From an uncultured Syntrophobacterales bacterium (GTDB lineage: Bacteria; Desulfobacterota; Syntrophia; Syntrophales; UBA5619): a stretch of DNA of 48,413 nt. The stretch covers positions 1 through 48,413 of the forward strand of contig CAIYSL010000052.1 of the NCBI GenBank assembly GCA_903928915.1. The letters are read 5' to 3'. The notes beneath the pieces are model-generated. The model was not told where the DNA came from, ran no database searches, and saw only the letters and a list, made by a program, of their open reading frames with translations. Position numbers and translations under genes: made by a program. Each line of letters begins with the position of its first letter. Position 1 is the stretch's first letter. Shown piece after piece: positions 9,222 through 12,309 of the stretch.

Positions 9222-9937
9222 TGCTTCACCCCCTTGAGGATCGTTTCCATCTCGAGCAGCGCCTCCAGGCCGTCGATGACCGGGGCAGCCGTTTCCACCT
9301 CCGGCCAGTTCCGCCGCACCAGGCGGTGCTTCAGCCAGACCGGCCGCATGCCCACTGCCTCGGCCCCGCGGACATCGATCCGCCAGTCGTCGCCCACATA
9401 GACGGCCTCGCCGGGGGAAAGCCCCAGCAGCTCCAGGCAGAGCTGGAACGGGGCGGGGTCGGGCTTGGGCAGAACGCCCCCCTCCCCGGCTACGACGACC
9501 ACCTCGAAGCGGCGCTCCAACTCCGGGAAGTCGGCCAGGCGGTGCTGTCCCTCGGCCTCCTGCCCCTGGCTGTTGGTGATCAGGGCCAGGCGGTATGCCC
9601 GCTCCGCAAGCTGCCGCAGGACTTCCCCGGCCTCGGGAAAAGGGCGCGTCATCGCCCGGACCCGCTGCCAGTAGTCCGTTTCCCACTGCGTAAGCAGCGC
9701 AGGGTCCGCCTCCCGGCCGTGCCGGCGAAACAGCTCTGCCAGGATCGCCTTCCGGGAGAACCGCGACCGGCCGTGGAATTCGCTCCGGACGGCACGGTAG
9801 ACCGTAAGGAACGCCTCGCGGTCGGCGAGGCCCAGGGCTCCGAAGGCCTTCTGCTGGGCCTCCCGCTCTGCTGCCCGGAACCCCTCCGACGAGTCGACGA
9901 GGGTCTGGCCGAAGTCGAAGACGATCGCCCGGATCAT
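9218..9937 (-). CDS. HAD-family hydrolase
   Basis: A 239-residue HAD phosphatase. Motif I is FDFGQTLVDSS (nucleophile Asp near residue 8, with Gln where most relatives have Gly or Thr). The motif II Ser/Thr lies in RLALITNSQGQ, motif III is the Lys before PDPAPFQL, and motif IV is VGDDWRIDVRGAEAVG. An alpha-helical cap fits between motifs I and II. It overlaps both neighbours by ATGA, so all three genes are coupled. The substrate is unknown; the position beside phosphonoacetate hydrolase suggests a phosphonate or phosphoester intermediate, for example a phosphonoacetaldehyde-like compound, but the Lys Schiff-base motif of PhnX is not evident. Confidence 0.8.
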   Translation of the reverse strand: MIRAIVFDFGQTLVDSSEGFRAAEREAQQKAFGALGLADREAFLTVYRAVRSEFHGRSRFSRKAILAELFRRHGREADPALLTQWETDYWQRVRAMTRPFPEAGEVLRQLAERAYRLALITNSQGQEAEGQHRLADFPELERRFEVVVVAGEGGVLPKPDPAPFQLCLELLGLSPGEAVYVGDDWRIDVRGAEAVGMRPVWLKHRLVRRNWPEVETAAPVIDGLEALLEMETILKGVKQ

Positions 9938-10596
9938 CGTCCGGCCTCTGCGCCGCCCAGCCGCCGGACCTCGCCGGGTACCTCGCGGCAGGTCTCCAGC
10001 ACGCGCCAGGCGCCGGCAAAGGCATGGCCCCGGGTGAGTGCGTTGGGGACGACGAGGCAGCGGATGCCTGCAGCAACCGCCGACTCCAGCCCGCGCGGCG
10101 AATCCTCGACCACCAGGCACTCCTGCGGGGTCAGGCCGCAGCGGGCCATCGCCTTTCGGTAGGGCTCCGGATCGGGTTTCGACAGGGTGAAGTCTTCGCG
10201 GGTGAGGATGAAATCGAAGTGGGCCAGGAGCCCCGTGCTCCGGTGCATCACGTCGAAATGCTCCTTCCGGGAGCTGGTCACGACCCCCTGGACCACGCCC
10301 CCCCGGAGCTGCCTCAGGGCCTCCTCGACCCCCTCCATGATCCGGACCCCTCCGGTGAGCAGTTCGGTGTACCGCTGGTTGCGCAACCCGTGGAGCCGGT
10401 CGATCTCCTCCGGGCGCACGCCGCGCTCAGCGGCCAGGATGAAGGAGCTGCGCCCCTCCACGAGCGATATCCGCCGAAACAGCGCCTCGGTCAGCTCCAC
10501 GCCCGTGGTGAGCAGGAGTTCCCGCGTCGCCTGGTAGTACAGTTTTTCCGTGTCCACCAGGACACCGTCGTTGTCCCAGAATACCGCCTTGATCAT
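9934..10596 (-). CDS. HAD-family hydrolase, beta-phosphoglucomutase-like
   Basis: A 220-residue protein with WDNDGVLVDTE (motif I, nucleophile and acid Asp separated by one residue), VTSSRKEHF (motif II), SKPDPEPYRKAM (motif III Lys) and VVEDSPRGLESAVAAG (motif IV). This is the arrangement of beta-phosphoglucomutase/phosphoglycolate-phosphatase-like HADs. The start at 10596 has GAGGAGG 4-6 bp upstream; a longer frame to 10653 would enter the inverted repeat. It is the first gene of the operon with a second HAD and phosphonoacetate hydrolase. The substrate is unknown. No promoter is obvious because the 5' region is taken up by a long inverted repeat. Confidence 0.8.
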   Translation of the reverse strand: MIKAVFWDNDGVLVDTEKLYYQATRELLLTTGVELTEALFRRISLVEGRSSFILAAERGVRPEEIDRLHGLRNQRYTELLTGGVRIMEGVEEALRQLRGGVVQGVVTSSRKEHFDVMHRSTGLLAHFDFILTREDFTLSKPDPEPYRKAMARCGLTPQECLVVEDSPRGLESAVAAGIRCLVVPNALTRGHAFAGAWRVLETCREVPGEVRRLGGAEAGR

Positions 10597-10619
10597 CTGT
10601 CCTCCTCGATATTTCCCTG

Positions 10620-10807
10620 CGACGTTGAAGGTCGTAATCCCGGAAGCGCGCATCGGGAGATTTTTCGGGGACCCTGCCCCCGCAGCATAGCGCCTGCAAA
10701 GACGACTGTTTGAGCGCGAAGCGCGAGTTTCGTCTTTGCAGCAAAGCGAGGAGGAGCAGGGTCGAAAAAGATCCAGCCGCGCGGAGGGATTGCGATCTTC
10801 AACGTCG
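10620..10807. repeat. 188-bp long imperfect inverted repeat
   Basis: The outer arms 10620-10641 and 10786-10807 match at 20 of 22 positions as reverse complements. GACCCTGC/GCAGGGTC and TTTTTCG/CGAAAAA segments pair further in. The core arms CTGCAAAGACGA (10694-10705) and TCGTCTTTGCAG (10730-10741) are perfect, with a small GCGC-GAA-GCGC hairpin at the tip. The whole element could fold into one long stem. It lies between the HAD operon start and the aldehyde dehydrogenase stop. A MITE-like element, an untranslated regulatory RNA or a processing and termination site are all possible. Confidence 0.75.
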
Positions 10808-10824
10808 TTCCCGAAACGCAGGAC

Positions 10825-10845
10825 GGCCGCCGGTCACCGGCGGCC
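10825..10845 (-). terminator. GC-rich hairpin downstream of the aldehyde dehydrogenase gene
   Basis: GGCCGCCGG and CCGGCGGCC form a perfect 9-bp stem with a TCA loop, 47 bp after the aldehyde dehydrogenase stop codon in the direction of transcription. There is no U run, so it may be a Rho-assisted terminator or a 3'-end stabiliser. Confidence 0.5.
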
Positions 10846-10892
10846 GCCCCATAGCTACCCCATCCGCCTGCCGTACGCAAGCGGCAAGTGCA

Positions 10893-12287
10893 TCAATCCC
10901 TGCCCCACTTCTTCAGGTACGGCCCGAACAGCTCGTCGTCGGCAGGCTGGTAGTTCGCCACCGGCACGGCCACGCGGGTGTACATCAGAAACTGCTTCCA
11001 ATTGATGTTCTCGCAGCTGATGTTGCCCGCCCAGGTCCCGCAGCCCAGGGTGTCGGTGAACCCCAGGTGGCTCGTCCACCCGCCGCTGTTGGCCTCGGTA
11101 TGGCCCATGTTGCAGACCACCCGGCTGACGTTGGCCCTGAGCCCGATCTTGTCCATCCGCTCGTCGAGGCGCGTCTGGATGTTCACCGAGTGGCCCTCGC
11201 CGGAGAACTTCAGGATCGACTCCATCCGGTCGAGCATCTCGTCGAAGTCGGTCCACTTCCAGACGGTCAGGACCGGGGAGAGCTTCTCGCCGGAAAAGCG
11301 GTCCTCGGGGCCGACCTTCTCACCCATCACCATCAGCATCTTGGTTTCCGCGGGGACCTTGAGGCCCGCCAGCTCCGCGATGTACACGGCCGATTTCGCC
11401 ACCACGTCGCGGTTGAGGGTATGGCCGTCGGGCCACAGGGTCGTGCGGAGGATCTCCCGCTCCTCGGTGCTGCACAGATACCCGCCCTCGGCCTCGAGGG
11501 CCGCGATCATCTTCTCGAAGATCTTCTCCTCGATCGCGATGGCATTCTCCGACGAGCAGGAGGCGGCGTTGTTGGCGGTCTTCGACTTCCGGAGCCGCAG
11601 GGCAATGCCGGGAAGGTCGTCGGCGACGGTGGCATCGACGATCGAGACGACGTTTCCCGCCCCCACGGTCTGGGCGGGGACGCCGGCGGCATAGACCACC
11701 TTCACCAGGGCGGCGCCGCCCGTGGCCACGGCGTAGTCGCAGTTCGCCATCAGCTCCGAGGTCTTGGCGTTGCTCGTGTGGCGGATGCACTGGACCAGGT
11801 CCACCGGCGCCCCGACCTTCGCCAGGGCCTTCCGGATGTGCTCCACCGTCGCGTAGGTTGCCTCCTCCGTCCGGGGGTGCGGCGAGCAGATGATCGCATT
11901 GCGCGTCTTGAGCGTGGACAGGGCGATGCAGCAGACCGTGGACTCCGGGTTCGTGCAGGGGACCACGTTGGCGATCACGCCGATCGGCTTGGCGTACTTC
12001 CGGATCCCCTTCGCCTTGTCCTCCTCCACGAGGCCGCAGGTCTTCACCCCGATCTGGTCGTACAGGGTTCCGCGCACCTTCGTCCCGATCTTGTGGACCT
12101 TGTCCTCGTACACGCCGATGCCCGATCTTTCGACGGCCAGACGCGCCAGCTCCTCGGCCGTCTCCTTCTTCTGCAGCTCCCAGCCCACCGCCAGGACCAT
12201 CTCGTCGACCTTCTCCTGCGGCCAGTATTCCACGGTCTTGAAGGCCGCCCGCGCTTTTTGATACATCTCTTTTATATCGTCTTCCAT
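10893..12287 (-). CDS. CoA-acylating-type aldehyde dehydrogenase
   Basis: A 464-residue aldehyde dehydrogenase superfamily protein without the alcohol dehydrogenase half of AdhE. GVIANVVPCTNPES is the nucleotide-binding entry, GGAALVKVVYAAG follows, and the catalytic Cys lies in NNAASCSSENAIAI. Later it has GLRANVSRVVCNMGHTE. This set fits acylating enzymes such as sulfoacetaldehyde dehydrogenase (SauS), succinate-semialdehyde dehydrogenase (SucD) or EutE/PduP, which convert aldehyde, NAD(P)+ and CoA into acyl-CoA. Which aldehyde is used cannot be read from the sequence. The start at 12287 has AGGCAGGA upstream; a longer frame starts at 12308. It lies 22 bp after the DUF47/PiT pair and may share that transcript. 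Confidence 0.75.
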   Translation of the reverse strand: MEDDIKEMYQKARAAFKTVEYWPQEKVDEMVLAVGWELQKKETAEELARLAVERSGIGVYEDKVHKIGTKVRGTLYDQIGVKTCGLVEEDKAKGIRKYAKPIGVIANVVPCTNPESTVCCIALSTLKTRNAIICSPHPRTEEATYATVEHIRKALAKVGAPVDLVQCIRHTSNAKTSELMANCDYAVATGGAALVKVVYAAGVPAQTVGAGNVVSIVDATVADDLPGIALRLRKSKTANNAASCSSENAIAIEEKIFEKMIAALEAEGGYLCSTEEREILRTTLWPDGHTLNRDVVAKSAVYIAELAGLKVPAETKMLMVMGEKVGPEDRFSGEKLSPVLTVWKWTDFDEMLDRMESILKFSGEGHSVNIQTRLDERMDKIGLRANVSRVVCNMGHTEANSGGWTSHLGFTDTLGCGTWAGNISCENINWKQFLMYTRVAVPVANYQPADDELFGPYLKKWGRD

Positions 12288-12309
12288 GATTCCTGCCTTT
12301 CTGTGCACG

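Follow-up and report, generated by a model that had tools for sequence, protein, structure and literature searches.

A nested inverted repeat in an uncultured Syntrophales bacterium as a probable member of a dispersed, REP-like hairpin family

What is the 188-nt nested inverted repeat that lies between two genes of an uncultured Syntrophobacterales bacterium, and what keeps its arms complementary? The window, i.e., the whole stretch of DNA analysed here (contig CAIYSL010000052.1, 48,413 nt), carries this near-perfect repeat at positions 10620-10807 of the plus strand. The initial annotation had described outer 22-bp arms matching at 20 positions and a perfect 12-bp core, and both descriptions are exact: the outer arms (10620-10641 and 10786-10807, plus strand) are 22 nt long, pair at 20 of 22 positions (91% complementarity), and are separated by a spacer of 144 nt, while the inner arms (10694-10705 and 10730-10741) are 12 nt long and 100% complementary. 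The plus strand of the 188 nt folds at -104.6 kcal/mol, compared with a mean of -66.5 (sd 4.5) for dinucleotide shuffles (z -8.53), and none of the 200 shuffles reaches this energy; the minus strand folds at -95.4 kcal/mol (z -8.36).

The structure was initially said to be more than a terminator needs, and rightly so: a search of region 10400-11000 detects no intrinsic terminator (a GC-rich hairpin with a T run behind it) on either strand, nor is there a sigma-70 promoter-like site near the element in the same region. An Rfam scan of region 10000-11500 gives no match over the element at E <= 1; two hits in this region, far under their gathering scores, both lie on a neighbouring small hairpin and were rejected. 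The element sits in the gap between genes 9934-10596 and 10893-12308 (own gene caller); with both genes on the minus strand, the suggestion that it separates two operons need not hold. The downstream gene in the sense of transcription (9934-10596) starts 23 nt from the element, and its product is presumably HAD-hydrolase-like, judged by eye; the product of the upstream gene (10893-12308) we take, again by eye, to be aldehyde-dehydrogenase-like. Between the stop codon of the latter gene and the element there is a separate GC-rich small hairpin (10821-10849, no strand assigned), which is kept in several relatives lacking the element and is outside the family described below; it stands behind the minus-strand gene, with no T run after it.

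A BLAST search of the same genome with the element gives many partial matches. The genome-wide search for copies, proposed as a check in the initial annotation, was made with R1, a covariance model of 28 aligned copies from this genome and its relatives (mean column identity 78%; the odd copies L054 and L120 excluded). At E <= 0.01 it yields 26 copies, of which 12 are long (156-160 nt), nine are 99-102 nt, and five are 87-139 nt. The window copy matches R1 at 10635-10791 with 161 bits and is of the long form. By the same model, copies are present in 35 of 61 relatives' genomes (own genome counted), in 84 of 155 genomes of the class, and in at least 33 of 395 genomes of a phylum sample, the latter being a low estimate given the strict filters and the seven candidates scored per genome. 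Those relatives of the window region that carry names are metagenome bins of Syntrophales and Syntrophaceae. Plasmid and phage collections show no match to the element at blastn sensitivity, and no description of the family was found in the literature searched.

Compared side by side, the copies have a nested, modular build. The conserved outer hairpin (GCGCGCATTGGAGATTTTTCGG ... TCGAAAAATGTCCAGCGCGCGG) is module A, and its loop holds module B (ACCCTGCCCCCGCAGCG ... GCGAGGAGGNGCAGGG); module C, in the loop of B, has a stem of 10-12 bp, which occurs in two sequence types, and an apical GAGCGC..GCGCGAG hairpin. Minimal copies consist of A only (L163, L166, and L167, with L168 similar), short copies of A+B, and long copies of A+B+C. 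In the window, where all modules are given on the plus strand, the left side of module A (..GCGCGCATCGGGAGATTTTTCGG) is at 10642-10668 and its right side (TCGAAAAAGATCCAGCCGCGCGGA) is at 10762-10785; module B occupies 10669-10693 (..ACCCTGCCCCCGCAGC..) and 10742-10761 (..AGCGAGGAGGAGCAGGG), being present in the short and long forms and missing in the minimal ones; module C spans 10694-10741, with the inner stem (10694-10705 paired with 10730-10741) and the apical hairpin GAGCGCGAAGCGCGAG (10712-10727), and is not found in short copies. The two sequence types of the inner stem differ by two-sided changes (helix 7 of the alignment). One locus occurs in two forms in the close genomes G017 and G020: between the same outer arms, the former (L151) has A+B and the latter (L166) only A. 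Both G020:C82 and G017:C188 have an extra module within the left side of A.

In most of the eight copies L102-L109, from another family of the order (G023, G042), the element forms the right-hand portion of a composite repeat some 320 bp long, which has a second conserved region left of the element. In L054 (1445-1623) and L240 a GGGGACA...TGTCCCC palindrome, which we take to be of REP-like kind, lies within the left arm of the element.

The placement of copies was analysed for 124 of them, the best matches of 19 genomes and not a census. Genes around them were called by a simple method based on codon usage, with seven ORFs of the window as its training set. No copy lies inside a called ORF. 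For the 112 copies with both neighbours called, the directions of the neighbours relative to the element are '--' in 70 cases, '++' in 26, '+-' in nine, and '-+' in seven. Gaps between genes of the same direction hold 96 of the 112 classed copies, against 48 of 61 background gaps (60-350 nt, ten stretches of these genomes); hence, same-direction placement is only slightly in excess, whereas the 70:26 polarity is clear. In the '--' class, the distance from the upstream stop codon to the model edge has a median of 23.5 nt (quartiles 19-36), and the next start is at a median of 54.5 nt; since the arms extend up to about 20 nt past the model edge, the base of the stem is close behind the upstream stop codon. 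The window copy is farther from the upstream stop because the small hairpin at 10821-10849 intervenes.

Comparison of flanks assigns 42 of the 124 copies to 15 clusters and leaves 82 single. Part of the spread is old, because some loci, among these 15 clusters, are common to several genera. The gap between guaA and carB (names read by eye from translations) has copies in G027, G020, G001, G013, G012, and G015, and in the genome of the window (G000), matched on one side only; the arms of these copies differ in sequence, with complementarity kept. The gap is occupied in many genomes (L152/L162 in G020, L215/L217 in G001, L243, L235, L257, L055), and G020 and G001 each have two copies there, close to each other and in opposite orientation. 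In the genome of the window, L145 and L146 (G000:C128 and C55, near contig ends) have a carB-side flank 93% identical, with an element in each, which is either a duplication or strain mixture in the assembly.

Covariation in relatives, also raised in the initial annotation, is present. In the sequence alignment of copies, 95.0% of cells are paired in the consensus structure, compared to 86.1% after shuffling, and two-sided changes are seen in 30 of 48 pairs, compared to 14.9 in shuffles, with none of 500 shuffles as high, although kinship inflates shuffle tests of this type and the structure was taken from the same alignment. If the partner is slid by 1-3 columns, the paired cells fall to 36-51%; chance is unlikely because of this control and the size of the effect. 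The covariation shows constraint on pairing, whichever molecule folds; a constrained single-stranded DNA hairpin would give the same covariation as a structured RNA.

Mismatches in the arms bear on the choice of the strand. On the plus strand of the element, i.e., the antisense strand for most host operons, the arms have 119 G-T and 45 A-C mismatches; outside the core these are 63 and 36, respectively, and in copies with unique arms, 29 and 16 (p 0.07). The lean is alike in the '--' (79:29) and '++' (20:8) contexts, while the inner stem leans in the opposite direction (15 G-T vs. 27 A-C). The G-T excess in the arms, if real, would point to folding of the plus strand whatever the direction of host transcription, and would therefore make it less likely that the element serves the host message as a hairpin.

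A functional structured RNA in many copies, i.e., a UTR element or small RNA whose core binds something and is closed by the variable outer stem, would fit the strong covariation, the conserved positions on the unpaired AGCG / AGCGAAGCGAGG sides, and the recurrence at guaA-carB in the six genomes named above (and, on one side, in G000). However, the orientation to neighbours is mixed (70 vs. 26), 82 of the 124 copies have no shared locus, modules B and C are missing from some copies, neither an Rfam match nor a promoter-like site is present at the window copy in the regions scanned, and the mismatch bias of the arms is on the antisense strand in most contexts. We consider this explanation rather unlikely. 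As for the initial choice between a MITE-like element and a structured RNA, a dispersed, structure-constrained element is supported, whereas a MITE in the strict sense, with conserved ends, target duplication, and a parent transposon, is not.

The outer arms are specific to their loci. When the left arm is compared with the complement of the right arm in anchored alignment (123 of the 124 copies have enough flank), the mean score is 8.35 within copies and 1.56 between copies, and 78% of copies score above the 95th percentile of between-copy scores. For the 58 of 123 copies with arms like no other, considering only the sequence outside the model, the scores are 5.23 (self) and 0.76 (non-self), and 66% of these copies exceed the 95th percentile of non-self scores. 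An unanchored local-alignment test of 47 copies yields 10.6 (self) and 6.4 (non-self), being weak for want of anchoring. Most places thus own a self-matching outer stem, and the remaining arms are short or decayed. Many arms agree with the family consensus in their inner part; in the left outer arm of the window copy, compared by eye with other copies, the innermost 15 nt or so are like the consensus and the outermost 7 nt or so are unlike it.

Changes in the arms were counted in 52 aligned pairs of copies from 14 clusters, pairs inside one cluster being non-independent; the count excludes L168 (a minimal form) and the pair L148/L241, and it treats L146, which clusters on one side only, as part of the guaA cluster. 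In these pairs 488 paired positions are unchanged, 135 have one-sided changes, 69 have two-sided changes with Watson-Crick pairing kept, and 21 have two-sided changes without it; 12 of the 69 have a two-sided neighbour. Seven of the least divergent pairs (L151/L166, L153/L158, L155/L161, L235/L243, L234/L242, L234/L250, and L242/L250) have 132 unchanged positions, 21 one-sided changes, and no two-sided ones. An unaligned count (158 two-sided, 80 one-sided) was discarded as inflated by register shifts between orthologs.

These arm comparisons favour stepwise compensation over the copying of one arm onto the other, because one-sided changes alone (21 vs. 0) are seen in the seven pairs and, of the 69 two-sided changes, only 12 lie next to another. 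The converse reading is that the repeats are neutral palindromes with functionless stems, kept perfect by template switching in replication that writes arm over arm. Template switching is reported to be able to create and maintain hairpins (PMC8794818), and these hairpins resemble the family in that long perfect stems are made and kept; arms that are locus-specific and often near perfect would also agree with it, and L164 and G017:C188 differ, by eye, by two adjacent two-sided changes, which may fit template switching better. Still, the process predicts sudden, clustered two-sided changes, whereas those in the family are mostly unclustered and the seven pairs named above have one-sided changes alone, so that we hold this reading to be distinctly improbable.

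At the site of the window copy, the relatives analysed lack the element. R1 gives no match in 15 fetched loci with the upstream gene; in G017, G020, and G019 (all of a sister genus) and in G003 (same genus) both neighbours are present and the gap, read directly, is without the element, and G010, G012, G013, G014, and G016 share the upstream gene but have a different gene next to it, again with no element. Gain in the lineage of the window would be the simplest account of this distribution. An apparent empty site at L159 in G020 was rejected, as it looks like a deletion with part of the right arm remaining. If an element were inserted into a pre-existing palindrome, e.g., a terminator, the outer arms would be the hairpin of the target, and they are indeed locus-specific and start close behind stop codons; but the element-free gaps of G017, G020, G019, and G003, although too diverged for a decision, show no palindrome beside the small hairpin, and the inner part of the arm follows the family consensus in many copies, which makes such an origin very improbable.

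Searches for a mobiliser were confined to Y1 transposases. No Y1_Tnp (RAYT/IS200) domain is found in the genome of the window, with its 26 copies, by a search whose control works. Y1 is present in 24 of 35 genomes with copies and in 20 of 26 without them (61 genomes), and none of the 40 Y1 places fetched from copy-bearing genomes, a part of those found, has an R1 match in flanks of up to about 1.5 kb. In G014 a copy (L258, about 780-980) is about 200 nt from a RAYT-like Y1 gene (L258, 2-682), the one adjacency of this kind seen, which we take as no more than a lead. Exact direct repeats of at least 3 nt touching the arm ends occur in 4 of 123 copies, against 2.4 expected, so that the target duplications looked for as a sign of a MITE are not detectable. 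Neither is a GTAG or CGTC tag conserved at either base of the 28-copy alignment, examined by eye, CGTC occurring only in one type of the inner stem. Y1/RAYT was rejected as the mobiliser, being absent from the own genome and not associated with copies in relatives, and an ordinary RAYT-mobilised REP/REPIN, with the placement near 3' ends known for REPs (PMC3733652) and the single adjacent gene in G014 on its side, is hardly credible given these negative results and the lack of a conserved tag.

By the features tested, the family is outside REP, MITE, and any Rfam family. It shares with the REP/REPIN elements of the RAYT-associated GTAG and CGTC super-families a palindromic structure, extragenic location, many copies per genome, a position near the 3' end of the upstream gene, and a single-strand hairpin. 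REPs are, however, elements of 20-40 bp with a GTAG or CGTC tag that prefer the 3' end of the upstream gene (PMC3733652), whereas the members of the family are about 60-190 bp long and made of modules nested in one another; they have no such tag, their outer arms are specific to each locus, and they show no Y1 association. Like MITEs, the copies are short, non-coding, multi-copy, and dispersed, but in place of conserved terminal inverted repeats they have outermost arms that vary between copies. Chunjie, a non-coding MITE of 178-235 bp from Geobacter uraniireducens, is similarly dispersed in intergenic regions and once found within an operon; its description (PMC10969869) reports conserved terminal inverted repeats and direct repeats, whereas the ends of the family are unconserved and no target duplication is detectable. 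Multicopy palindromic intergenic repeats have also been described in genomes of related bacteria of the genus Geobacter (PMC2996986; PMC2700814), the likeness being one of general description.

The element probably belongs to a REP-like family of nested hairpins, dispersed and non-autonomous, which is distributed in Syntrophales and parts of the wider phylum and in which pairing is kept by stepwise compensation. Under this preferred reading, a putative enzyme would copy the core, probably in the form of a single-stranded hairpin, to other sites, and insertions would be tolerated where they fall behind a stop codon and ahead of the following ribosome-binding site. Counting against this reading are the negative search for a Y1 mobiliser, the lack of detectable target duplications, the loci common to several genera, the small excess of same-direction placement, the two adjacent two-sided changes between L164 and G017:C188, and the strand signal of the arms, which does not suit a role in the message. 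After insertion, an element would have its pairing maintained by stepwise compensatory substitution, with the folded strand under constraint, while the loop end may gain or lose modules. By analogy with intergenic REPs, the likeliest effect of a resident copy might be that of a very stable hairpin behind a gene, distinct from a terminator, that slows decay from the 3' end of the message. A wider proposal, which we consider unlikely as a whole, is that nested hairpins may spread without a classical transposase and grow loop-in-loop, with new modules entering at the loops of older ones and the outer stem of each copy co-evolving as a lineage of its own, with one strand (single-stranded DNA or antisense RNA) constrained whatever the direction of the operon.

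The usual account of palindromic repeats in bacteria invokes a single enzyme family (RAYT) and conserved ends. The family described here shows neither a RAYT link nor conserved ends, yet it is widespread in the class and occurs at guaA-carB across genera. In practice, it is a source of false calls of RNA genes and terminators in these genomes; at the same time, it provides a natural series for testing how stems are kept up, by selection or by template switching.
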